Origin: Candidatus Woesearchaeota archaeon
Lineage (GTDB): Archaea; Nanobdellota; Nanobdellia; Woesearchaeales; ARS49
DNA length: 56,148 bases
Reading direction: 5' to 3'
NCBI GenBank assembly: GCA_018302815.1
Contig: JAGVZE010000009.1
Coordinates: forward strand, 1 to 56,148
Within the stretch, counting starts at the first letter, position 1. The number at the start of each line of letters is the position of its first letter. A program made the translations under genes and the position numbers. The notes under the pieces are model-generated. The model saw only the letters and a list, made by a program, of their open reading frames with translations. It had not been told where the DNA came from and did no database searches. Below, piece after piece: positions 12,707 through 51,533 of this stretch.

Positions 12707-13558
12707 ATGATGACTAAAGAGGTCGAGAAAAAAATACTCCAATACATCCACGCACAACCGCGCGCGGTGCAGGAAATCGCAAAACACATCAACAAAAACT
12801 GGCGAACAGCAGACAGCTACGTGCAAAAAATAGTCGATGAAAGCGGACAACTCGCCGTGCGAACATTCCGCGGAGGAACAAGAGGAGCGCTCAAAATAGT
12901 CTACTGGAACAACAAAGACTCGGTCAACGCAAGCGAATTCCAAGAACGACTCTTCAAACGAATAGAAATCGGACGACGAAAAAGAGACTTCTCACCGCTC
13001 GACATCTACAACTATGTCGCTGAGAACAAACGAAGCGCGAGGAGCGGCAGCTATACCGTCGGCAACGAACTATTCAACCAAAACCTCTCAAGCTTCCTTA
13101 AAAGCGCAAAAGAACGACTGCTCGTATTCAGCGGAAACTGCAGTTTTGTAAATTTACAAGAAAACGGCAAATCAATGCTCGATGTCTTGACCGAACTCGC
13201 CGAAAAAGGCACCGACATAAAAGTTTTGACAAGAGTCGACTTCGCTTCGCTAGGAAACCTGCAAAAACTACTAAGCATAAACTTCGCTCTTGGCAAGGAA
13301 GCCATCGAAGTTCGCCACTGCGAACAACCGCTGCGCGGATTCCTTGTTGATGAAAACGCCTTGCGCCTAAAAGAAGAAGTAAACCCCGACGAATACAAAC
13401 AAGGAGAACTACCAGAAGACATCCGAGTGATTTTGTACGACATACGAGATTCTGACTGGGTCAAATGGACAAAAGACGTTTTTTACAATTTATTCAGAAC
13501 AAGCATCGCAGGCGAAAAACGAGTAAAGGATTTGAAAAGCATACGACGAAACGCGTGA
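12707..13558 (+). CDS. TrmB-like transcriptional regulator (wHTH + PLD-like sensor)
   Basis: A 283-residue protein. Residues 1-60 form a winged helix (EVEKKILQYIHAQPRAVQEI..., NWRTADSYVQKI). A C-terminal region, from about residue 130, has a PLD-like fold as in TrmB/sugar-responsive archaeal regulators: RLLVFSGNCSF, then VRHCEQPLRGFLVDENALRL, resembling the H-x5-P-x-R-G-x-x-x-D segment of TrmB effectors. The catalytic HKD is not intact, so a sensor is likelier than an enzyme. GGTGAT precedes ATG 12707 (12710 is also possible). Likely controls the divergent operon. Confidence 0.72.
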   Translation: MMTKEVEKKILQYIHAQPRAVQEIAKHINKNWRTADSYVQKIVDESGQLAVRTFRGGTRGALKIVYWNNKDSVNASEFQERLFKRIEIGRRKRDFSPLDIYNYVAENKRSARSGSYTVGNELFNQNLSSFLKSAKERLLVFSGNCSFVNLQENGKSMLDVLTELAEKGTDIKVLTRVDFASLGNLQKLLSINFALGKEAIEVRHCEQPLRGFLVDENALRLKEEVNPDEYKQGELPEDIRVILYDIRDSDWVKWTKDVFYNLFRTSIAGEKRVKDLKSIRRNA

Positions 13559-13800
13559 CGGCACGTACGGCAAACGGGAGGACGGCGAGACGGATGGACG
13601 GCATGACGGTAGGACGGAAGACGGCGGGACGGCATAACGGTAGGACGGAAGGAAGGCAGGACGGAAGACGGCAAGCACGAAGAACAGCAGGAGGTAGGAT
13701 GTGGGAAGAAGGTAGGACGGCTGTAGGAAGGCTGACGGTAGGACGGACGACGGCGGGAAGTTGGAGGTAGGACGCTGGAGGACGATTGACTGCCAGACTT
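13556..13800 (+). repeat. GACGG array A5 (longest), part of a segmental duplication
   Basis: About 240 bases of GACGG/GGACGG/GTAGGACG words, between convergent genes. It ends in GACTGCCAGACTT (13788-13800). Within it a stretch around 13597-13720 (ATGGACGGCATGACGG..., ACGAAGAACAGCAGGAGG, GATGTGGGAAGAAGG) recurs almost base for base in array A15, so the array was copied together with the gene next to it. Confidence 0.9.
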
Positions 13801-13826
13801 GGATATAACCTTGTCCAATTTTGGCG

Positions 13827-14004
13827 GGCGCTCCGCGCCGACTATTGAACTCTAGACTCGCCTCGCGGCAATCCAAGATTTCCGAGAATCACGAAAATAC
13901 AGCGTATTTTCGGGAACTCGACAAGCTTTGCTTGTCACGTCTCAAAAAGCTCTGCTTTTTGCGTCTACGCGCCGATTACTAAAAGAGTGGCTCGCCCTTC
14001 GGGC
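13827..14004. other. Train of perfect short hairpins with 3-base loops
   Basis: Five perfect stems, each with exactly three loop bases: GGCGC-TCC-GCGCC (13827-13839), CGAAAATAC-AGC-GTATTTTCG (13892-13912), GACAAGC-TTT-GCTTGTC (13920-13936), CAAAAAGC-TCT-GCTTTTTG (13943-13961), GCCC-TTC-GGGC (13994-14004). They lie just downstream of the stop of the minus-strand MDD gene. They could terminate or stabilise its transcript, or act at DNA level. Confidence 0.7.
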
Positions 14005-14011
14005 TCGCAAT

Positions 14012-14803
14012 TTATAATGGGCATACCCGAGCGAAACGGGCGCTGTTGCCGAGAACCCTGCCGCCACCACAACCGCAGCCGTAACGAACATCGTTGGCGC
14101 ACAACGGCCGCAACTGATCCTGTTTAGGAAGAACCCACCTTCCCTGATCATCTTGATGAGGAACAGTCCAAAACGCCATGGCCGCACCACCTTGAACCTG
14201 TCCAAAAACAATATTAGAATACCGCCTCAACAAATTCCTATCACCCTCGACCGCCGCAAGCCAACCCTTATGCTTCAAAACCTGATCAGGAGTCAACGGC
14301 TGATTATACACATCATCTCTATCCTGAACATCAAGCTCAACAAAACTTACAAAATCATCATAATTCACAGGCAAAAAATCACCCCTAAAAGAAGCAGGAA
14401 CATCATTGAGCAAAGCATCACTACACGGAACAACAACACGAAACTTAGTCGTTCCTTTCTGATACACGATCGCACTGCTCGTATCAAGCCACGACTCCCA
14501 TAAACTCGCAGCGCCCTCACGCTCAAACTGTTCTATTCTCGCCTGAACAGTCTCCTTAAACGTCAAAGGACGAGCAACTCCTCCCGCAAAAGGATGCAAA
14601 CCATCATCACTTGCGCACAAACCACGCAACGCAACCAACGCCTCACCATACCTTGCATTCCCAGAACCAACCGCCCATTGATGAGGCAAACCCAAATCCA
14701 AAACCGCACCCTCACCCGCCTTCTTCAACTCACCACGCCAACGCAAAACATCACTCCACACACTACTCGTCCTTGCCAAACGCTCCAACGCGCAAACGAT
14801 CAT
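14012..14803 (-). CDS. MDD-family protein, copy 1, start probably shifted
   Basis: A 263-residue protein of a family seen four times in this window and not recognised elsewhere. Shared features: an N-terminal helix of type LERLAR, a mid block with [DN]-x-x-x-F-x-x-V-E-L-D-V, and a C-terminal block W-[TV]-x5-D...W...PLCA-[ND]-D followed by a short Gly/Cys-rich segment (YGCGCGGG). Relative to the copy at 51482, it has lost two bases in the N-terminal codons, so the ATG used by the family (14807, MDDRLR...) is out of frame here; the overlapping ATG at 14803 (ATGGATG) is in frame and rescues the reading frame. A TATA-like box (GTTTAATAAC) lies about 25-30 bases upstream. Function unknown. Confidence 0.6.
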   Translation of the reverse strand: MIVCALERLARTSSVWSDVLRWRGELKKAGEGAVLDLGLPHQWAVGSGNARYGEALVALRGLCASDDGLHPFAGGVARPLTFKETVQARIEQFEREGAASLWESWLDTSSAIVYQKGTTKFRVVVPCSDALLNDVPASFRGDFLPVNYDDFVSFVELDVQDRDDVYNQPLTPDQVLKHKGWLAAVEGDRNLLRRYSNIVFGQVQGGAAMAFWTVPHQDDQGRWVLPKQDQLRPLCANDVRYGCGCGGGRVLGNSARFARVCPL

Positions 14804-14907
14804 CCATAAAATAAACAAAACAGAACACGTTATTAAACATACTGCTCTGAAATTCAAACAGCCATCAAAGCGCAGAATTTATAAGCATCTAAACCGTAAT
14901 CAAAATA

Positions 14908-18080: not shown

Positions 18081-18575
18081 ATGGCACTATTCGACAACCG
18101 CAAAGGAATAACCCCACTTGTCGCCACCATCCTTCTCGTCGCATTCTCAATCGGCCTTGGAGCCCTAGTAATGAGCTGGGGCGAAGAATACATCGAAGAA
18201 AAAGCCGAATTCGTCCAAGGAACAGCTGAAGTACGCTCCGGATGCGATGTATCTGAAATCAGCGTCATAAAAATAAGCGGACAACCGCAAGCCTGCGTAG
18301 CTTCCGACGGCATCAAAATCTGGATAGACAACGGACCAGAAATGGACCTTGTGAACCTGCACGCGAGAATAGCCGGAACAAACGGCGTCGACGTCATCGA
18401 CTCACTCTTAACACAACCGCTGCTCAAAGCAAACGCGATAAACACAATCATACCATACAACAAAGAAATCGGCCAAGTCCTGCAAGTCAAACTAACTCCA
18501 AAAATATGGACCGGCAGCCAAGTAGCGATATGTTCTCAAAAAGCGATAGAATTAGAAGACTTGCAAAGTTGCTGA
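18081..18575 (+). CDS. Type IV pilin-like protein (class III signal peptide)
   Basis: A 164-residue protein. The N-terminus RKGITPLVATILLVAFSIGL is the standard archaeal pilin signal: basic residues, Gly-Ile-Thr/Ser at the cleavage site, then a hydrophobic helix that forms the pilus core, followed by GALVMSWG as in DUF1628-type pilins. Prepilin peptidase (9647-10504) should cut after Gly. The C-terminal domain has four Cys (GCDVS, QACVA, AICSQ, QSC), likely disulfide-bonded. ATG 18078 and 18081 are adjacent; the second is better spaced from GAGGTGA. The stop is followed by array A6. Confidence 0.85.
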   Translation: MALFDNRKGITPLVATILLVAFSIGLGALVMSWGEEYIEEKAEFVQGTAEVRSGCDVSEISVIKISGQPQACVASDGIKIWIDNGPEMDLVNLHARIAGTNGVDVIDSLLTQPLLKANAINTIIPYNKEIGQVLQVKLTPKIWTGSQVAICSQKAIELEDLQSC

Positions 18576-18581
18576 TAACGC

Positions 18582-18652
18582 AAGGACGGAAGATGGACGG
18601 CGGAACGGACGATGGTAGGACGTTGGAAGTAGGACGAAAGACGGCAAACGAG
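18582..18652 (+). repeat. GACGG array A6 (left of Bro-N gene)
   Basis: Begins with TGCTGATAACGCAAGGACGG (18570-18589) and ends in GACGGCAAACGAGTAATCCTAC...GACTTTTTT. Both edges recur in array A7 on the other side of the Bro-N gene. Contains TAGGACGTTGGAAGTAGGACG, a word shared with A12, A14 and A16. Confidence 0.85.
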
Positions 18653-18657
18653 TAATC

Positions 18658-19518
18658 CTACAAGACTTTTTTACGCGTATGGATAAGTTTTTTCTTTGAC
18701 TCGGGCTCTGCAAGATAATTCTCCTTTGATATCACCGGACGACCAAGTTCTTTCTCTGTCTCTTTTCTTGCATTACCTGCAACACGACCGCCTCTCTTCG
18801 CAGCGCCTTCAACCTTTACGTATCCCTGCGCATCCTCATTCCCAGTGATTTCCGTCGACACTCTCTCGCCCAACATTGAAAAAATAAGCTCCAAATCACT
18901 CATATGATCCCGCAAATTCTCACGTTTCAAACCCTTGAACTGTTTATACTCATTCGGAGTCATGCCAAACGTGGCTTTTGAGATTTCCGCAGTGAGTATT
19001 GCATATTCTCGTTCCTCCAAAACCCCTCGTTTTCTCCATTCATCGGTTAGTTCATCGCGTATGGCGATGCCGCGTATCCTTTTTTCAATCCAGTCATCCG
19101 AATACCCCTTTGCCTTGTATAGTTCTCTCATACGTTTTTGCGCGAGTTCCGGATTTTCTATCTCTTGAACGCGCTGATAGCCAACTTCCGCAAGCCATTG
19201 CTTAAACGGCTCTGCCTTTGGAGAGGGAATAGATTGAATGATCCTGAAGAGCGATTTGATATTTGCACAGTCTGTTTCTCGTAACTTGCCATCTTCAGAG
19301 GGTAATTTCAACCGGTGACAATTTGTCACCACTTCGCTTCCCTCTGCCCTGAGCCGTTGACTGAGCTTATTCCAGTATTTCCTTGCAGTCTGAAAATCTG
19401 CCTGCTCTGTTAACACTGCAACAATATCTACGATTGAGAACCACCATTCGTCATTAGACCAGATTCTTCTGATGTCTTTACCTTGAAATACCACTAATGA
19501 TTTATCCGACTCAGCCAT
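18658..19518 (-). CDS. Bro-N domain protein (DinD/phage antirepressor type)
   Basis: A 286-residue protein. The N-terminal 100 residues are a Bro-N domain: VVFQGKDIRRIWSNDEWWFSIVDIV, then ALTEQADFQTARKYWNKLSQRL-type helices. A middle part with GYQRVQEIENPELAQKRMRELYKAKGY is typical of the chromosomal DinD-like group, which is widely spread by horizontal transfer. Bro-N proteins bind DNA; the role of this group is unclear (DNA damage/phage-related). The gene is bracketed by arrays A6 and A7, whose outer and inner edges match, which suggests insertion or duplication. Its last codons lie in the repeated edge. Confidence 0.8.
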   Translation of the reverse strand: MAESDKSLVVFQGKDIRRIWSNDEWWFSIVDIVAVLTEQADFQTARKYWNKLSQRLRAEGSEVVTNCHRLKLPSEDGKLRETDCANIKSLFRIIQSIPSPKAEPFKQWLAEVGYQRVQEIENPELAQKRMRELYKAKGYSDDWIEKRIRGIAIRDELTDEWRKRGVLEEREYAILTAEISKATFGMTPNEYKQFKGLKRENLRDHMSDLELIFSMLGERVSTEITGNEDAQGYVKVEGAAKRGGRVAGNARKETEKELGRPVISKENYLAEPESKKKLIHTRKKVL

Positions 19519-19577
19519 TATTCAACAGAGTTCAAAACCACCTTAAGAATCTTACGCACTCATAAGTCCAGTGAACA

Positions 19578-19777
19578 GAACCTGCTGATAACGCAAGGAC
19601 GGCTGATGGACGGTAGACAGCTGTCGGCGGGACGGATGGACGGCACGTACGGAGAACGGCAAGACGGAAGACGGCGGGACGGATTGGACGGCACGTACGG
19701 AAAACGGCAAGACGGAAAATGACGGGACGGATTGGACGGAAGAGGGCAAAAGAGTAAGCCTAAAAGACTTTTTTAGA
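19578..19777 (+). repeat. GACGG array A7 with 48-bp tandem unit (right of Bro-N gene)
   Basis: Starts with TGCTGATAACGCAAGGACGG as A6 does and ends with AGAGTAAGCCTAAAAGACTTTTTTAG, matching the end of A6. Inside, a 47/48-base unit (GGATTGGACGGCACGTACGG and following) is repeated in tandem at 19634-19680 and 19681-19728, with a third partial copy. Plus-strand polarity between minus-strand genes. Confidence 0.88.
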
Positions 19778-21619: not shown

Positions 21620-22231
21620 TTAAAGCAACCCGCCGAACACCCACTTCTTCAACTTCTGCGCAGGAGTCACCTGCTCTGAAAGCCACGTTTTCATAACGGG
21701 CTTTGCGGTCTGAGGCTGCAAAAACAACGGCAAAGCGTTCCTTGGCTGGTTGCAAATGTTCTTTCGGCAGAAATCAGCGCGCACTGGCTTATTCACACTA
21801 GAAAGAAAATTGCCCTCGCTATTCACAAGCTCCAAATCAGAACGCAAACTAATATCGCGATTAAACACCGCGCTCTTAGACACGCTGACAAACTGAACGC
21901 CGATGCGATTCTTCACAAGACTATTATCGACAAGAACAATCCCTGAAGAATTGCTCACGGCAAAACCACGCTCGTAGCCCTGCAATTTGCAATTCTGCAC
22001 TGTCACATTCCTTGAATTCTTAATCGTCACACCCTGATAGCCGATAAGGCCAGATAAAACAGCGCCGTTACAGTCAACAAGAATGTTGCTGCCTGAAACA
22101 ACCAAACCCTTCTTCAAGAAATAAACGCCGTTACAAATGTCCAGCGAAGAATCTACCCTAAGACCTTCAGACGGCGCAATACACGCGAAAACACCCGGCG
22201 CTAACAAAAGCGCGACAATCACCCACTTCAT
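21620..22231 (-). CDS. Secreted beta-helix (NosD-like) protein
   Basis: A 203-residue exported protein. Signal peptide MKWVIVALLLAPGVFA. The rest shows right-handed parallel beta-helix rungs: GLVVSGSNILVDCNGAVLSG, then GVTIKNSRNVTVQNCKLQGY, GFAVSNSSGIVLVDNSLVKN, each about 20-24 residues with Asn/Gly turns, as in NosD/polycopper- and carbohydrate-binding surface proteins. Two Cys pairs (CNGVYF, DFCRKNICNQ). It lies nine bases after the related gene upstream and is probably in one operon with it. Likely cell-surface role. Confidence 0.78.
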   Translation of the reverse strand: MKWVIVALLLAPGVFACIAPSEGLRVDSSLDICNGVYFLKKGLVVSGSNILVDCNGAVLSGLIGYQGVTIKNSRNVTVQNCKLQGYERGFAVSNSSGIVLVDNSLVKNRIGVQFVSVSKSAVFNRDISLRSDLELVNSEGNFLSSVNKPVRADFCRKNICNQPRNALPLFLQPQTAKPVMKTWLSEQVTPAQKLKKWVFGGLL

Positions 22232-22240
22232 CTCTTTTTT

Positions 22241-23053
22241 TCACTTCTTTTTAAACAGGAACGACGCTATAAACGCAACAAAATACAGCGCCGCATAAAA
22301 CAACAATTTAGCCCCAAGCGGAACAGACGAATCAGCCCGCACAGGACCCGCAGGAACCTCTTTTTGAGCGACAATCTCTTTAACTTCCTGCTCGAGCTCA
22401 GCAATCCTAGTCTCGACATCAACTTTCTCAACCACGCTGCCAGTTATTTCATCAGCAGTAGCAGGCGTTGCGCCTACGCAATCATCATCATTGCCAGAAT
22501 TGCACCTATCACTGCAATAAAAGTCGCCGGACACGCACACGTTCATATCACGATACTCATTGCAGGCGTTCACCTCGCAAAAAGAACGCTCAATATCGCG
22601 ATTGCCAAGCATCACAATATTGAACTTGCTGCTGATAGCCGAAACAGGCACCTGATAACTCTTGTCACTGTTATCCTGCATAACATTCTCGTACGATTCA
22701 AGCAAACGGATACCAACACGATTCTTGAGAAACGCATTATCCTCTATCAAAGAATGAGTCACGTTCTTCAAATACAAACCCTGATTGAAAGTCATCAAGT
22801 TGCAATTACGCAGCGTGAAATTCTTCGCGTTCTCGACACGAATTCCAATCTCGCTCTGGCCAAGAATACCCCTTAGAACAGAAGTTGCGCAATCGATCTG
22901 CACATTATCGGCACTGATACTGATGCCATTCGGGATATCGTACGTATCAACGCAAAAAATCACGCTCTCCTTAATGACAGAACCGTCTATGGGCTCAACA
23001 CACTGCGCAAAAGCCAATTGCGATACTAAAATGAACAAAAGCAGGCGCTTCAT
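22241..23053 (-). CDS. Surface beta-helix protein with C-terminal anchor
   Basis: A 270-residue protein: signal peptide MKRLLLFILVSQLAFA, beta-helix rungs from about residue 40 (ISISADNVQIDCA, IGIRVENAKNFTLRNCNLM, GLYLKNVTHSLIEDNAFLKN, VGIRLLESYENVMQDN), a Cys-rich block (CEVNACNEY...CSDRCNSGNDDDC), a coiled-coil (ETRIAELEQEVKEIV), and a final hydrophobic helix with KKK tail that anchors it in the membrane. It is a longer relative of the next gene. The start at 23053 overlaps the stop of the small membrane ORF (23050-23220). Confidence 0.8.
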   Translation of the reverse strand: MKRLLLFILVSQLAFAQCVEPIDGSVIKESVIFCVDTYDIPNGISISADNVQIDCATSVLRGILGQSEIGIRVENAKNFTLRNCNLMTFNQGLYLKNVTHSLIEDNAFLKNRVGIRLLESYENVMQDNSDKSYQVPVSAISSKFNIVMLGNRDIERSFCEVNACNEYRDMNVCVSGDFYCSDRCNSGNDDDCVGATPATADEITGSVVEKVDVETRIAELEQEVKEIVAQKEVPAGPVRADSSVPLGAKLLFYAALYFVAFIASFLFKKK

Positions 23054-23220
23054 TGATCCCACCACACGACAAGCAAAGGCAACGCTACGAAGAACAACAC
23101 TATGCCGATTATCGCGATAATCCAGCTAAATCCATGCTCAAACCAGTACATGCCCCAAAAACCAAAGGGCATCACCGCGAGCGGACGCACAAAGTCCTGC
23201 CAGCCCAACCTCTTTTTCAT
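23050..23220 (-). CDS. 56-residue membrane protein upstream of beta-helix genes
   Basis: MKKRLGWQDFVRPLAVMPFG starts the chain; two hydrophobic helices (FGFWGMYWF and WIIAIIGIVLFFVALPLLVV) follow. It ends two bases inside the ATG of the beta-helix gene (ATGA), so it is translated in the same operon. The promoter (TTTTTTAAAG) lies in a 48-base sequence that is repeated upstream of the ADP-ribosylglycohydrolase gene. Aromatic-rich ends suggest an integral membrane protein of unknown function. Confidence 0.6.
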   Translation of the reverse strand: MKKRLGWQDFVRPLAVMPFGFWGMYWFEHGFSWIIAIIGIVLFFVALPLLVVWWDQ

Positions 23221-23227
23221 TTAACAT

Positions 23228-23275
23228 AGAGCAAGGCAAGTTCTTTAAAAAACCTTTCTGTCAAAGAAGAGTGAT
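23228..23275. repeat. 48-bp direct repeat, copy A (promoter-bearing)
   Basis: Matches 24382-24429 at 46 of 48 positions. On the minus strand it contains the TATA-like TTTTTTAAAG just upstream of the 23220 start. The two copies flank the ADP-ribosylglycohydrolase gene and array A8. Confidence 0.88.
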
Positions 23276-23280
23276 ACCAA

Positions 23281-23355
23281 AACGGACGGGAGGACGGAAT
23301 GACGGCAAGTACGGAAGATGGATGGACGGAATGACGGGGGGAAGTGGGACGCAGG
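23281..23355 (+). repeat. GACGG array A8
   Basis: Array directly after the 48-bp repeat and before the stop of the ADP-ribosylglycohydrolase gene; minus-tandem context, plus-strand polarity. Confidence 0.83.
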
Positions 23356-23366
23356 TGAAATAAACT

Positions 23367-24374
23367 TCAACGTTGCACTTTGTGAGAGACTTTCCCCATA
23401 GAGAGGTAACGTTCAAATGTTTCCGCCAGCGCTGTTAGCTTCTCTCTACCTTCAACGTTCTCTATCATGAAAGATGGCAATGAAGCAAGACCGTGTTTCC
23501 CTGCGAGAATCCCGGTACAAATCGATGCGAGTGAATCTACATCTCCGCCAATACGAACTGAAATCCTCAACCCATCCATCGCGTCTTTCGCATGCTTGAG
23601 GACATACAGGACGCAACCGCCAGTGAGCATCGCATCAGATGGCAGTCCAGTGATTCCCGGCATGAACCGCGGCGCAACAATCGGTTGCGGGCCGCATAAC
23701 ACTTCATACTGGTGCTCCTTCAAGTCCTCGGGTCGAGGCAGCTCATCTATTCTCTGCAAGAGCAAGTCAGTATCTTTATCCATTCCTTTGACCTGCTCTT
23801 GACAGTAGGAAACTATGCTCGTTGGATTTCCATCTCGAAGCAAAAGATACTCTGCCGCTCTTGCAACTATGATGCTTGCCACCCTCGCCCTAGGATGAGG
23901 ATGCGTCGCGTCAGCATTGATCACTGCGCACCGATTTATATCATGCTCTTGAACAAAAGCAAAAGGAATCGCCCTCATCGGAGGAGCATTCCCGGGGTAC
24001 TCCCTATCCCGTTGGAACGCTCGTATCTCTTCAATTGATTTTGCACCGTTGAAATACCATTGCATCGAACCGTGACCCTGCCTACCAAACCCTCTCCTTT
24101 GCACGCCATCCTGATATTCCTCTTTCCAGAATCCGACAAGCATATCAGGCGTCAGCTCCTTACCTGAAAGAAGCGCGTTAATCACTCCCACCGTCATCTC
24201 AGTATCATCAGTATAATCCCACGGACTATAATTTTCAACGAAGGATCCTTCCCGCGCATTTACGAACTTCTGAAAATCAACATTGGCCCTTATCCACTCC
24301 CTGCTCTTGAATTCAACACCCGCACCAAATGCATCTCCGATCGCCAAACCCAATAATAAGTCCTTCTGTTTCAT
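23367..24374 (-). CDS. ADP-ribosylglycohydrolase family protein (DraG-like)
   Basis: A 335-residue protein. N-terminal LLGLAIGDAFGAGVEF, then the metal-binding TDDTEMTVGV, and C-terminal GGDVDSLASICTGILAGKHG, in the positions of the two Mg-binding motifs of DraG/ARH-type hydrolases that remove ADP-ribose from proteins or nucleic acids (G-G-D-[TV]-D-[ST]). The second motif has Val-Asp-Ser instead of the usual Thr-Asp-Thr, a mild change. The gene is flanked by 48-base direct repeats carrying its promoter, suggesting acquisition or local duplication. No ART partner is seen nearby. Confidence 0.88.
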   Translation of the reverse strand: MKQKDLLLGLAIGDAFGAGVEFKSREWIRANVDFQKFVNAREGSFVENYSPWDYTDDTEMTVGVINALLSGKELTPDMLVGFWKEEYQDGVQRRGFGRQGHGSMQWYFNGAKSIEEIRAFQRDREYPGNAPPMRAIPFAFVQEHDINRCAVINADATHPHPRARVASIIVARAAEYLLLRDGNPTSIVSYCQEQVKGMDKDTDLLLQRIDELPRPEDLKEHQYEVLCGPQPIVAPRFMPGITGLPSDAMLTGGCVLYVLKHAKDAMDGLRISVRIGGDVDSLASICTGILAGKHGLASLPSFMIENVEGREKLTALAETFERYLSMGKVSHKVQR

Positions 24375-24381
24375 TCAATCA

Positions 24382-24429
24382 AGAGCAAGGCAAGCGCTTT
24401 AAAAAACCTTTCTGTCAAAGAAGAGTGAT
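24382..24429. repeat. 48-bp direct repeat, copy B (promoter-bearing)
   Basis: Second copy of 23228-23275 (two mismatches, CG for TT), beginning eight bases upstream of the ADP-ribosylglycohydrolase ATG at 24374 and containing its TATA-like box. Confidence 0.88.
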
Positions 24430-24436
24430 TACCAGC

Positions 24437-24811
24437 TTATTTCTTTTTGTAGCCGAATATCGTGTCGTAGTGCTGATGATCCGCAATCTCAAAAACCACG
24501 CTCACTATCCGTACTTCATCACCACTCACATAATAGAGCAACCTCCAGAACTGCGAGAGCTCCACCCTAAACAAATTAGGCAAATTCCCAAACTCTTTCG
24601 GCCACACCTCGTGCTTGACCGCATCACCTGAAAACGGATTCGTTTTGAGAAGATTCAATGATCGTTCGACACTTCGTAGAAGCTGCGCATCCTCTTTTGG
24701 AGGAGTCTTCCCCTGCGCCTCAAAAGCATGCACTGTTTCCTGCAATCGCGCAAGAGCAACATCTGCGGCGCCAATAACCTGAACTATCTTCTGTTTATCC
24801 TTTAATTCCAT
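24437..24811 (-). CDS. RelE/ParE-fold toxin-like protein
   Basis: A 124-residue protein. Its C-terminal 55 residues have the RelE/ParE pattern of strands: LFRVELSQFWRLLYYVSGDEVR, then IVSVVFEIADHQHYDTIFGY, as in archaeal mRNA-interferase toxins with a YxxxFGY end. A helical N-terminal half (about 60 residues) precedes it. It overlaps the upstream wHTH gene by ten bases, a typical toxin-antitoxin arrangement with antitoxin first. The start is ATG 24811; the longer frame to 24865 lies in the antitoxin gene. Confidence 0.68.
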   Translation of the reverse strand: MELKDKQKIVQVIGAADVALARLQETVHAFEAQGKTPPKEDAQLLRSVERSLNLLKTNPFSGDAVKHEVWPKEFGNLPNLFRVELSQFWRLLYYVSGDEVRIVSVVFEIADHQHYDTIFGYKKK

Positions 24812-25080
24812 GTCCGCCCCTTGCTCAGAATAGCAGCGATATCCTCCTTTGGCGCGAAAATCCAAACAACGCCATCAGGAGTGAACTCCACTTTTCCGCT
24901 TTTCTGCAAGTAGGCAAGGATGACTTTAAGCGTGTTATGATTCACTTTTCTTGGAAGGAGACGTTTAAGCTCAGCCACGCTGAGCACTTCTTTTGCGTCG
25001 CGAATGGTATCTTCCACCATTTGCACGGTATCCAATGTAGGACTGTGGATTGGCTTTGGTTGTTCAAGTAATTGCGACAT
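24802..25080 (-). CDS. wHTH antitoxin-like protein
   Basis: A 92-residue protein. A winged helix covers residues 25-75: DTIRDAKEVLSVAELKRLLP, then NHNTLKVILAYLQKSGKVEF, with the wing TPDGVVWIFAP. It overlaps the RelE-like gene downstream. Start ATG 25080, about 27 bases after a TATA-like CATTTATATATTGG (minus strand, about 25104-25118). Likely autorepresses this promoter and neutralises the toxin; inferred from context. Confidence 0.65.
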   Translation of the reverse strand: MSQLLEQPKPIHSPTLDTVQMVEDTIRDAKEVLSVAELKRLLPRKVNHNTLKVILAYLQKSGKVEFTPDGVVWIFAPKEDIAAILSKGRTWN

Positions 25081-25203: not shown

Positions 25204-25824
25204 ATGTTATATGATGAAACTTTAGCAGACAGGGAATATTGGTCCTGGTTCACTGGTGAAGAATTTAAAACCGGCCCCGGTAAAAATGACATAGGAGACG
25301 AAGTAAGAACAGAATTAGAAAGTTTTGTTGATCCTGGAAAAGTGATGAATATCATGTGTGGGAAATACGGTCTAATTAAGTCACACCTAGGACTCGACGT
25401 CTCACCACATATGCTAAGAAAGAACAAAGATCTGACACGCCGTGTCGTATGCGATTTAAATGCAGATACATCCTATCCCATCAGAAATGAAGAATTCGAT
25501 ACCGCGGTAATAATTAACGGCATCGCGTACTTAAGGAACCCAACACATGCTTTCAAAGAGATCGCAAGGACTCTGAAGTTAGGAGGAGTTTTAGTTGTTG
25601 GCTTTGATCATAATCAAACCCGAAAGGGTCAAAAGGAATGGGGTTGTCTAAACGAAAATGATAAATTAGTCAAACTCCAAGATCTATATTCACAGGCAGG
25701 ATTCGGGCCACAGATTATTAAAAAATTCAAAGTTCACTGGGGATTTCCAAACCATGACATCCGTCTTGAAAATACGTTTTATCTAGTAAAAGCGGAGAAG
25801 TCTCCAGCCAGTCATGTTTTGTAG
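25204..25824 (+). CDS. SAM-dependent methyltransferase
   Basis: A 206-residue class I methyltransferase. The pattern is shortened: VMNIMCGKYGL occupies the glycine-rich motif I position, then GLDVSPHMLRKN, RRVVCDLNADTSYP, FDTAVIINGIAYLRNP (motif IV) and LKLGGVLVVGF (motif V-like). Motif I lacks the usual three glycines. Substrate unknown. The gene starts leaderless, 20-25 bases after a TATA-like GATTTATAAG (25170). Its A/T-rich composition differs from its neighbours, which may mean transfer. Confidence 0.7.
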   Translation: MLYDETLADREYWSWFTGEEFKTGPGKNDIGDEVRTELESFVDPGKVMNIMCGKYGLIKSHLGLDVSPHMLRKNKDLTRRVVCDLNADTSYPIRNEEFDTAVIINGIAYLRNPTHAFKEIARTLKLGGVLVVGFDHNQTRKGQKEWGCLNENDKLVKLQDLYSQAGFGPQIIKKFKVHWGFPNHDIRLENTFYLVKAEKSPASHVL

Positions 25825-25886: not shown

Positions 25887-26810
25887 CTACTCCACAAACT
25901 TAACATCATCAACAATTCCATCAGCATCCCTATCTAATCCTTCAACAATTCTCGCGCAAACTTTAGGGTCAATTGAATTGCCCTTGGCAACTTCCGAGAA
26001 ATACCGCAGGAACGCCATCGTAACCGCTCTTGTTCCAGCATACCTTCTCCCCGCGACCACAAGCACCCACTTCTTAGGATTGAAAGGATTTTTCGCCTTT
26101 ACTATAAGACCGCACTCACCCTCAGGATAAACCTTGCCTGAAAGCGTGCTTTTAATCGCCCAGCTAGCAGTTTTATCGAAAAAAATAGGCAAATGCTCAT
26201 TCACTTTTTGCGTCACCATATTGACGACAGGCCCTCCGATCAATATCAAGTTCTTCTGCAATTCTTCGGATCGAACCTCAGTATCGAGACGAACGGACAA
26301 ATTACTAAGGTTGCTGACAAAAGTGCCCAAACAAAGCGCCAAATCAATACCATAATACCCATCACGGCTCCTTGCCATCTCAGGACCGTGCGGGTCGGGA
26401 GAACCCACAACAATAATACCGTTGAGCTCGCCGTTCTCGATAATCGGCGATAAAAACTCATCGCTTTGCATCGAAAGACCCGGAATCTTACGCGTCTCGC
26501 TAGGCTCCCTTAATGCCATCACGAACGCAGGAGCTGTCGGCGCGTAAAAACTCGCAGACGTTCCATTCACCTCCTCCTTTCTAACAACCGAGATAAGCCC
26601 GACTTTCTCAAGATTGCGGATATGATAGTACACCTTCTGCTCGTGCACGCGAAACTTTTTCGCAATACCCATAGGATACATCGGAGTCTTCGCTAGCTCG
26701 TGCAGAATCCTTTGGGCAAGAGGGCTAGAAGAGACCCTCAGCTGTTTCTGATTCATCGCCTTCGCCGGAAGGCTCACCACTGATTTGTTCCTGTTATCGA
26801 CGACAATCAT
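25887..26810 (-). CDS. wHTH regulator with S-layer-type C-terminal domain
   Basis: A 307-residue protein. Residues 25-75 form an ArsR-type winged helix (SPLAQRILHELAKTPMYPMGIAKKF, then VYYHIRNLEKVGLISVV). The C-terminal part contains a segment like the repeated surface-protein domain of archaeal S-layer proteins: LILIGGPVVNMVTQKVNEHLPIFF, then VYPEGECGLIVKAKNPFNPKKWVLVVAGRRYAGTRAV over about 205-265. Such N-HTH plus S-layer-like fusions probably act as sensors. It diverges from glmS over a 100-base intergenic region with two TCTAAAAA(A)TATTT operators. Confidence 0.65.
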   Translation of the reverse strand: MIVVDNRNKSVVSLPAKAMNQKQLRVSSSPLAQRILHELAKTPMYPMGIAKKFRVHEQKVYYHIRNLEKVGLISVVRKEEVNGTSASFYAPTAPAFVMALREPSETRKIPGLSMQSDEFLSPIIENGELNGIIVVGSPDPHGPEMARSRDGYYGIDLALCLGTFVSNLSNLSVRLDTEVRSEELQKNLILIGGPVVNMVTQKVNEHLPIFFDKTASWAIKSTLSGKVYPEGECGLIVKAKNPFNPKKWVLVVAGRRYAGTRAVTMAFLRYFSEVAKGNSIDPKVCARIVEGLDRDADGIVDDVKFVE

Positions 26811-32574: not shown

Positions 32575-32739
32575 CGAGGAATAACTGAGCTCCACGTTCA
32601 ACAAATACTTCAACACCCTGATTACATCCGTAAATCATTCGAAGGAAGAAAAGAAGCAGGAGGCTCAATCGATGGACGCTCTATCAGAATAGAATTCATC
32701 GAAGAAGAAACTTATATAAACATAATAACCGTGATATAA
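32575..32739 (+). pseudogene. Decayed DUF4258-like toxin-type gene
   Basis: An open stretch without start codon: RGITELHVQQILQHPDYIRK, then GRKEAGGSIDGRSIRIEF and EEETYINIITVI before the stop. It has the end pattern of DUF4258 proteins (H-P-x-x-I, G-R-x-I-R-[VI], [IV]-T-V). Just upstream, a stop and a probable small deletion break the ARL/RINERGIT-type N-terminus. DUF4258 genes often precede DUF2283 genes as here, so this looks like a degraded toxin beside its intact partner. Confidence 0.45.
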
Positions 32740-32742
32740 CCC

Positions 32743-32949
32743 ATGAAACTCGAATACGACAAAAGCGTTGATGCGGCATACATCTACTTGAAATATCCCC
32801 TCTCAGATGGAGAAGTCAAGAGATCGGTAGAATGCAAGAAAGACATCATCTTCGACTTTGACGACCACGGAAAGCTCATCGGCGTAGAGATTCTGAACGC
32901 TAAAAAAGTTCTTGGACGAAAAGTGATTGCGGAAAGCCAAACAGTCTGA
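32743..32949 (+). CDS. DUF2283 protein (antitoxin-like)
   Basis: A 68-residue protein: MKLEYDKSVDAAYIYLKYPL, a DUF2283 opening (M-x-[IL]-x-Y-D-x-x-x-D-A-A/L-Y-I-x-L), and the second half IIFDFDDHGKLIGVEILNAKKV. Its partner DUF4258 gene directly upstream is broken. A truncated copy of its first 41 bases lies at 36797-36862. Function unproven; likely a toxin-antitoxin component. Confidence 0.7.
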   Translation: MKLEYDKSVDAAYIYLKYPLSDGEVKRSVECKKDIIFDFDDHGKLIGVEILNAKKVLGRKVIAESQTV

Positions 32950-36754: not shown

Positions 36755-36796
36755 GACCTGCTGATTTTGCCCAGCATAGACACAGCACCACAACTC

Positions 36797-36862
36797 ATGA
36801 AACTTGAATACGACAAAAGCGTTGATGCTGCATACCTGGCAGAAATACATTCTATCGATTAG
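36797..36862 (+). pseudogene. Truncated duplicate of DUF2283 gene
   Basis: The first 41 bases (ATGAAACTTGAATACGACAA and on) are nearly identical to the start of the gene at 32743, then the sequence diverges and ends MKLEYDKSVDAAYLAEIHSID. A partial copy, evidence of local rearrangement. Confidence 0.6.
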
Positions 36863-42872: not shown

Positions 42873-43415
42873 ATGGCATTCGAAGCGCTAAAACTGCTCG
42901 CGCCCGAGCAAAGGCTCACTGAACTCAAGAAACTCATAGAAAAACTGCTCAAAGACAAGGAAGAAATAGAAAAAGAGCTTAAAATTGCGCGCGAAGCCAA
43001 AAAAGAAACTGAAGAACTCGACAAAAAAGCGAAAACGAATCACGAAGAGATTTCTGAAGCGAACCAGATGCTAGTCAATGCCCAAAAAGAAGCCTCTGCT
43101 GAAAGGCCATCTCGCAGCGTCGAGGAAAGACTTACAGAACAGAAACGAGACGGACTTGAGCAGCTAGTCGTAGCTGCGCCAGGACCAATTCGGGCAAAAG
43201 AAGATACGCCTGAAAAAAACAAGGCATACGAACAGGCAAAAGGCTACGACCAGCCAGAGCATCTATATCAAAAGAATGAACAAAGATATGAACGATTCGA
43301 AGAGATGAAACAAAAATCCTACGAAAAACGCCAAGAGGAAGAACGCGAACAAACGCTTGGCAAAGAAGGACTCAAAGAGCAATTGTACGGGCACCAAGAA
43401 AGCTACAAACGGTAG
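42873..43415 (+). CDS. Coiled-coil protein, unknown function
   Basis: A 180-residue, highly charged (Glu/Lys/Gln-rich) protein; residues 10-75 form a long coiled coil (KKLIEKLLKDKEEIEKELKIAREAKKETEELDKKA in pieces), and the C-terminal 60 residues are another charged helix with YERFEEMKQKSYEKRQEEER. TATA-like CTTTTAAAGCC (42842) is about 30 bases before the ATG. No enzyme motif. The stop is followed by array A11. Confidence 0.6.
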   Translation: MAFEALKLLAPEQRLTELKKLIEKLLKDKEEIEKELKIAREAKKETEELDKKAKTNHEEISEANQMLVNAQKEASAERPSRSVEERLTEQKRDGLEQLVVAAPGPIRAKEDTPEKNKAYEQAKGYDQPEHLYQKNEQRYERFEEMKQKSYEKRQEEEREQTLGKEGLKEQLYGHQESYKR

Positions 43416-43582
43416 ACGGCAAGTACGGAAGACGGATTGTCGGTGGACGGCAGGAAGTAGGACGAACGGACGGCAAGACGGAAGATGGCTTGTCGGAAGA
43501 CGGATGGGCGGTAGGATAGGCGGGACGGAAGACGGCAAATACGGAGGACGGATTGACGGCAGGACGGGAGACTGCAGTTTGG
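43413..43582 (+). repeat. GACGG array A11
   Basis: About 165 bases of GACGG words with variants (GTCGGAAGACGG, GGCGGGACGG), between two plus-strand genes. It ends with GACTGCAGTTTGG (43570-43582), an edge motif like A1/A5. Confidence 0.87.
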
Positions 43583-50463: not shown

Positions 50464-50635
50464 TGTATGACGACGGCAGGATGGATGAAGTAGGAAGTAG
50501 GACGTTGGATGTATGTAGGACGGAAGACGGATGGACGGCATGACGGTAGGACGGAAAGAAGGCGGGACGCAAGACGACAGGCACGAAGAACAGCAGGAGG
50601 CAGGATGTGGGAAGAAGGAAGTTTGACGGCGATTA
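50464..50635 (+). repeat. GACGG array A15, in segmental duplication copy 2
   Basis: Array upstream of the pilin-like gene and downstream of the MDD pseudogene. The part 50528-50620 copies A5 (GACGGATGGACGGCATGACGGTAGGACGGAA, ACGAAGAACAGCAGGAGG, GATGTGGGAAGAAGG). Plus-strand polarity, between minus-strand genes. Confidence 0.87.
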
Positions 50636-50699
50636 GTTTCTGACTGGATAAAAATTGTCGAATTTTGCGCAAGCGCTCCGTGCTGGTAGAATTTATCGC

Positions 50700-50765
50700 T
50701 CGCCCCTTGCGGGGCTCGCTAATAGCTCGCTACGCTCGCAATTGGCTCGCCCTTCGGGCTCGCGT
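50700..50765. other. GC-rich hairpin cluster downstream of MDD pseudogene
   Basis: Stems GCCCC-TTGC-GGGGC (about 50711) and GCCC-TTC-GGGC (about 50751) with AGCTCGCTACGCTCGC words in between; sequence-related to the hairpin train at 13827-14004 and in the same place after the duplicated gene. Confidence 0.6.
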
Positions 50766-50766
50766 T

Positions 50767-51482
50767 TTATAATGGGCGTACTCGAGCGAAACGGGCGTCG
50801 TAGCTGAGACTCCCGTAGCCATTACAACTGCAGTAGCCATGAATATAGTAGGCGCACAACGGCCGCAATTGACTCTGCGCAGGACACACCCATCTTCCTT
50901 GCGCATCTTGCCTGTGAACTGTCCAAAACGCCATCGCAACACCACCTTGAACCTGTCCAAAAACAATATTAGAATACCGCCTCAACAAATTCCTATCACC
51001 CTCAACCGCCGCAAGCCAACCCTTATGCTTCAAAACCTGATCCGGAGTCAACGACCGATTATACAAATCATCTCTATCCTGAACATCAAGCTCAACAAAA
51101 CTTGAAAAATCATCATAATTCACAGGCAAAAATGCATCCCTGAACGAAGCAGGAACATTCCTCAACAAATCATCACTCAAAGAAACAATACGAAACTTTG
51201 TAGTGTCTTTTTGATACACAATCGCACTACTCGTATCTAACCAATTCGTCCACAAACCAGCCGCGCCCTCATGCTCAAACTGGTCAATACGAGCCTGAAC
51301 AGTCTCCTTAAACGTCAAAGGACGAGCAACTCCTCCCGCAAAAGGATGCAAACCATCATCACCCGCGCACAAACCACGCAACGCAACCAACGCCTCACCA
51401 TACCTTGCAGCCAACGCAAAACATCACTCCACACACTACTCGTCCTTGCCAAACGCTCCAAACGACGCAAACGATCATCCAT
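50767..51482 (-). pseudogene. MDD-family gene, copy 2, frameshifted
   Basis: The N-terminus reads MDDRLRRLERLARTSSVWSD from ATG 51482, as in the family, but 79 bases present in copy 1 (after ACCTTGCA, at 14656-14740) are missing, which shifts the frame. The remaining C-terminal part stays open (residues RYGEALVALRGLCAGDDG onward, then PLCAYYIHGYCSCNG). Copy 1 instead has a two-base loss near its start; so the two copies are broken differently. A TATA-like TGTTTATTTAC (about 51502-51512) is intact. Confidence 0.7.
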
Positions 51483-51533
51483 AACTAAACAAACCGCAAA
51501 GAAGTAAATAAACATTTCGAGAATGTGAAAAAA

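Follow-up and report, generated by a model that had tools for sequence, protein, structure and literature searches.

The window analysed here, the whole stretch of 56,148 nucleotides on one contig of a 26-contig, 1.55-Mb Woesearchaeales genome, carries an ADP-ribosylglycohydrolase (ADPRG) gene between two direct copies of one short sequence, within a conserved cluster of surface-protein genes. Read from high to low coordinates, the locus consists of an HTH gene, a methyltransferase gene, a putative antitoxin gene, a toxin-like gene, repeat copy 2, the ADPRG gene, a GACGG-type tandem array, repeat copy 1 and an operon for a small membrane protein and two beta-helix proteins (Table 1). Related genomes are referred to by our own labels (G followed by a number).

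Table 1. Positions of genes, repeats and arrays discussed in the text (window coordinates)
Feature	Position	Strand	Remarks
BRO-family gene (18658-19518), repeat at its 3' end	18632..18673	.	42 bp, 88% to 19734-19775
BRO-family gene (18658-19518), other copy, upstream	19734..19775	.	Self-alignment
Second beta-helix protein, native operon	21620..22231	-	Profile match and synteny
NosD-like beta-helix protein, native operon	22241..23065	-	Profile match and synteny
Small membrane protein, about 56 aa, first gene of native operon	23053..23220	-	In five family genomes, homologues precede a beta-helix gene
Repeat copy 1, likely to be the native promoter and start region of the 23220 operon	23211..23279	-	TATA 23244-23252, BRE-like 23253-23259
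GACGG-type tandem array before copy 1, a probable component of the native site	23284..23337	.	Other arrays in the same place in G039 and G013
ADPRG, 335 aa	23367..24374	-	Pfam PF03747; intact TDDT and GGDVDS motifs
Repeat copy 2, promoter copy before ADPRG, probably derived	24365..24434	-	TATA 24398-24406
RelE/YoeB-like toxin (weak family match), inserted block	24437..24811	-	Homologues common in the class
Putative winged-helix antitoxin partner	24802..25080	-	Adjoins the toxin also in G061, G440 and G005
Methyltransferase-domain gene, inserted block	25204..25824	+	PF08241; missing here in G002, G017 and G039
HTH / S_layer_C protein, native left neighbour	25887..26810	-	Adjoins the 23220 operon in G002, G017 and G039

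The ADPRG gene and its paired repeat

A preliminary description of this DNA had reported a 48-bp direct repeat flanking the ADPRG gene, and our alignments confirm and extend it. Positions 23228-23275 and 24382-24429 agree at 46 of 48 positions, with TT/CG as the sole difference. Beyond this core, the ungapped extended alignment covers 65 nt at 89% identity, and the gapped alignment of 23211-23279 with 24365-24434 has 70 columns and one gap (self-BLAST E 1e-17; E 1e-18 for the same pair of about 70 bp when the whole genome was searched). The genome holds these two copies; a third was not found in any of its contigs, where the remaining matches are GACGG arrays. Within the window, the 19-mer GACAGAAAGGTTTTTTAAA occurs with up to 3 mismatches at only two places, both in the copies (0.04 expected by chance). 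The copies point in the same direction, 1154 bp apart, and each immediately precedes a start codon on the minus strand (24374 and 23220), both in the same register. Copy 2 begins about 3 nt past the stop codon of the toxin-like gene.

Both copies contain a BRE/TATA-like box, with the TATA-like sequence TTTTTTAAA at -32 to -24 from the ATG. As a reference for this distance, the first TATA-type hexamer was scored in 184 sampled genes of this genome with intergenic upstream regions. It fell into the -30 bin in 43 genes and into the -35 bin in 18, with other bins holding 1-8, so that the peak lies at -35 to -26 and the boxes of both copies stand within the usual distance. The earlier statement that each copy holds the TATA-like box and upstream region of the next minus-strand gene stands, with the box at the position that this genome prefers. 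Transcription from both copies would be of the leaderless type, and the genes behind them would be regulated together.

The ADPRG protein matches the PF03747 profile with 128.8 bits against a cut-off of 26.2, over residues 7-301 of 335. Like other members of the ADP_ribosyl_GH family (DraG / ARH3 / Tri1 type hydrolases), it has a nearly full-length Pfam domain and the metal-binding motifs TDDT (55-58) and GGDVDS (GGDxDS; 276-281), and its catalytic motifs are intact. It differs from the named types in scoring far under the equivalog cut-offs for DraG (49.7 vs 337 bits) and Tri1 (33.6 vs 490 bits) and in belonging to a mainly Bacteroidota subfamily that carries no named function here. Defence-system profiles gave no match to ADPRG.

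When the proteins of 288 genomes from the order were searched, close relatives turned up in G207 (51%) and G166 (48%) only, and distant paralogues elsewhere. None of the other family genomes searched yielded a member of the subfamily; among them, G007 and G020 have distant paralogues only. The best matches in the GTDB collection are bacterial, namely a contig in a Thalassovita bin (62%) and Xanthocytophaga (59%), followed by many Saprospiraceae and Flavobacteriaceae in a subfamily that is mainly Bacteroidota. In the tree, the window ADPRG joins these two best matches (L048/L049; support 91/89) and stands apart from three archaeal proteins, L073, L078 and L082 (98/90), yet a single archaeal clade with the latter was not rejected (p-AU 0.109). 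The gene is thus bacterial-type, and it may have come directly from a bacterium. Viral contigs yielded a 25% relative at most. In bacteria, a conserved ADPRG partner was not found, the commonest neighbour cluster besides the ADPRG cluster itself occurring at 10 of 36 loci.

The corresponding site in related genomes

In G002, G017 and G039, family members from two other genera, the small-membrane-protein homologue directly follows the HTH gene with a gap of 37 to about 220 nt, and the ADPRG gene, the toxin-antitoxin-like pair and the methyltransferase gene are all absent from the site. G005 and G013 have the operon with other neighbours, and in no relative was an ADPRG of this kind found at this site. 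Because relatives join the HTH gene directly to the operon, the operon is regarded as the native unit and the intervening 2.6-kb block is most simply a lineage addition. This comparison of the locus in sister genomes, which the preliminary description had proposed, largely supports insertion. Its picture, in which an acquired gene is flanked by copies of one promoter that serve both this gene and the downstream operon, agrees with the empty sites, the restricted occurrence of ADPRG in the family and the mainly Bacteroidota homologues. The extent of its cassette has to be revised: the foreign block occupies 23.35-25.88 kb, about 2.6 kb rather than 1.15 kb, and takes in the toxin-antitoxin-like pair and the methyltransferase gene. 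The GACGG array (A8), which had been counted as part of the cassette, has to be taken out of it. In G039 and G013, tandem arrays of different units adjoin the native promoter on its upstream side, so that the array is more likely a feature of the native site, probably as part of the promoter region.

The toxin-like gene matches the curated YoeB/Txe family weakly (E 0.079, under the cut-off), and the two-gene toxin-antitoxin-like module recurs in the class. Its DNA homology to G061 and G440 spans 25118-24438 and stops at the toxin stop codon. Copy 2 therefore lies outside the module, and the possibility that the promoter travelled as part of it was ruled out.

Probable duplication of the promoter and alternative explanations

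When copy 1 was compared with the upstream regions of the native operon in G039 and G013, these ranked 2 and 3 against 360 control upstreams; the similarity is weak, and a few control upstreams score as high. The sequence GTATCAC is common to copy 1 and G039, and copy 2 has an extra A at this place. The G002 and G017 promoters of the native operon show no clear relation to the repeat copies. Because the sister-genus promoters resemble copy 1, a resemblance that is suggestive rather than strong, the native state is probably represented by copy 1 and its array, and the copy before ADPRG, copy 2, is probably derived. The relatives compared belong to other genera, so that in place of a comparison within the genus the order of events is one that we infer.

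We consider it likely that ADPRG was acquired and that about 70 bp of the native promoter was duplicated to stand before both ADPRG and the operon. Under this reading, a bacterial-type ADPRG gene would have been acquired by the archaeal lineage and, together with the toxin-antitoxin-like pair and the methyltransferase gene, would have come to stand between the HTH gene and the operon promoter. Some 70 bp of promoter DNA, reaching to the start codon of the operon, would have been duplicated, one copy now preceding ADPRG. Each copy would supply a complete leaderless-type promoter, and ADPRG and the operon would be expressed from the same control sequence. The duplication may have come about through homology-assisted illegitimate joining, or through a circle with the promoter that integrated and was then partly lost, in either case without a transposase. 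Recombination is the most likely cause of the join, ahead of transposition. A transposon insertion was rejected given the one gene between the copies, the duplication of about 70 bp and the weak inverted repeats nearby (72-78% complementary). A short target-site duplication does not fit a repeat of about 70 bp, and a dispersed element is ruled out by the presence of two copies only in the genome.

Among other explanations, a small circle might have integrated by an integrase or in the Campbell manner; the 48-bp core would then have served for attachment or homology, and the copies would mark the left and right junctions of an element reduced to one gene. Tyrosine-recombinase-like genes are present in the genome, and other locus-specific repeat pairs flank accessory genes here and in sister genomes, some of them at gene 3' ends (an integrase gene, tRNA-Cys and, in G005, TruB beside AAA_14). 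However, a recombinase gene was found neither between nor beside the copies, which lie at a promoter and have no third counterpart in the genome, and we regard this origin as unlikely. Tandem duplication of a longer segment, all of it lost but the promoter, followed by divergence and involving no foreign DNA, would account for the direct orientation and the spacing of the copies. The DNA between them, however, is not a second copy of the flanks and carries a gene absent from relatives, and the empty sites likewise disfavour this improbable course.

With like sites on either side of one gene of about 1 kb, the locus also recalls an integron-like gene cassette whose recombination sites would be the repeats. 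Yet the copies fold no better than shuffles (z +1.3 and +2.2), GTTRRRY occurs in copy 1 only and at chance frequency in the locus, and neither further such sites nor an integron integrase (TIGR02249) over the cut-off was found in the genome. A cassette was rejected on these attC-fold, GTTRRRY and integrase tests, and we give it hardly any credence. Convergence of two unrelated promoters under the same regulator, conceivable in that both copies are promoters of neighbouring genes, is just as implausible: identity at 46 of 48 positions, including positions outside the box and unique in the genome, goes far beyond a regulatory motif.

Local repeat pairs and comparison with known systems

The ADPRG repeat is not the only local pair in this DNA. 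A BRO-family gene 4 kb away is flanked (18570-19775) by local intergenic duplications, namely 42 bp at 88%, an array, and 31 bp at 94%, and relatives lack an insert at that site; the stop codon of the BRO-family gene lies inside one repeat copy. A sample of about 520 kb of this genome (about a third) contained about eleven local pairs, 30-200 bp long, two of them involving tRNA genes and some duplicating gene 3' ends (FtsZ, a YchF-like GTPase and an integrase gene). In the sister genomes G005 and G013, samples of about 190-200 kb apiece gave three and six local pairs, including one at TruB next to AAA_14. These pairs are no more than suggestive of a wider pattern. It is conceivable, if doubtful, that accessory genes enter genomes of the family through a recurring process in which 40-105 bp of local host DNA become duplicated around one- or two-gene inserts, the resident gene staying intact. 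The host DNA duplicated in such a process would comprise promoters, 3' ends of housekeeping genes and intergenic stretches. If true, the ADPRG case would show that recurring local duplication can hand a newcomer a host promoter.

Several further repeats were recorded. Immediately behind the FtsZ, YchF-like GTPase and TruB genes, their 3' ends occur a second time (L149 14718-14939, L143 10569-10902 and L162 12214-13669), and the TruB pair encloses an AAA_14/DUF4143 gene. At L142 6487-8291, an HTH-like and DUF6036 nucleotidyltransferase-like gene pair is enclosed by 73-bp direct repeats of which the genome has no further copies. In the window, a small conserved gene (32743-32949) has its initial 44 bp repeated 4 kb away at 93% identity (32738-32781 and 36792-36835), and the block enclosed by this repeat pair was not found between the corresponding neighbour genes in G039. 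An array-plus-gene unit occurs twice, at 13609-14819 and 50515-51493, 37 kb apart and with 86-95% identity, the second without an internal stretch. Intergenic GACGG-type arrays of the window include 13557-13673, 19598-19739 and 43409-43576; in the window and 27 sampled stretches, the GACGG strand is the negative-GC-skew strand in 26 of 26 arrays (Fisher p 1.5e-5).

Promoters differ between archaea and bacteria, and a bacterial-type gene arriving in an archaeon therefore needs a new promoter. At the ADPRG locus, the likely source can be read directly: the promoter of the neighbouring operon would have been copied, and the operon keeps its own. The locus is thus a modest but clear, concrete and testable example of promoter gain by an acquired gene, and the repeat predicts clean excision through recombination between the copies.

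No description of an arrangement like that of the ADPRG locus was found in the open-access literature, and three known systems offer partial parallels. Integron gene cassettes have been reported in archaea (PMC9668308); they share with the ADPRG locus a single-gene unit between like sites, but this locus lacks attC features, and an integron integrase over the cut-off was not found. Homology-facilitated illegitimate recombination has been discussed for Vibrio T6SS gene arrays (PMC5361080), where, as here, a foreign gene is added beside a conserved anchor and the resident gene is kept. The putative anchor in our case differs in being a promoter that is present twice, with neither a donor nor an intermediate known. 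The recruitment of promoters by new genes in E. coli (PMC11101190) likewise involves a gene expressed from pre-existing promoter DNA; here, in contrast, the promoter is archaeal, the gene is an acquired one, and the resident operon keeps its own copy.
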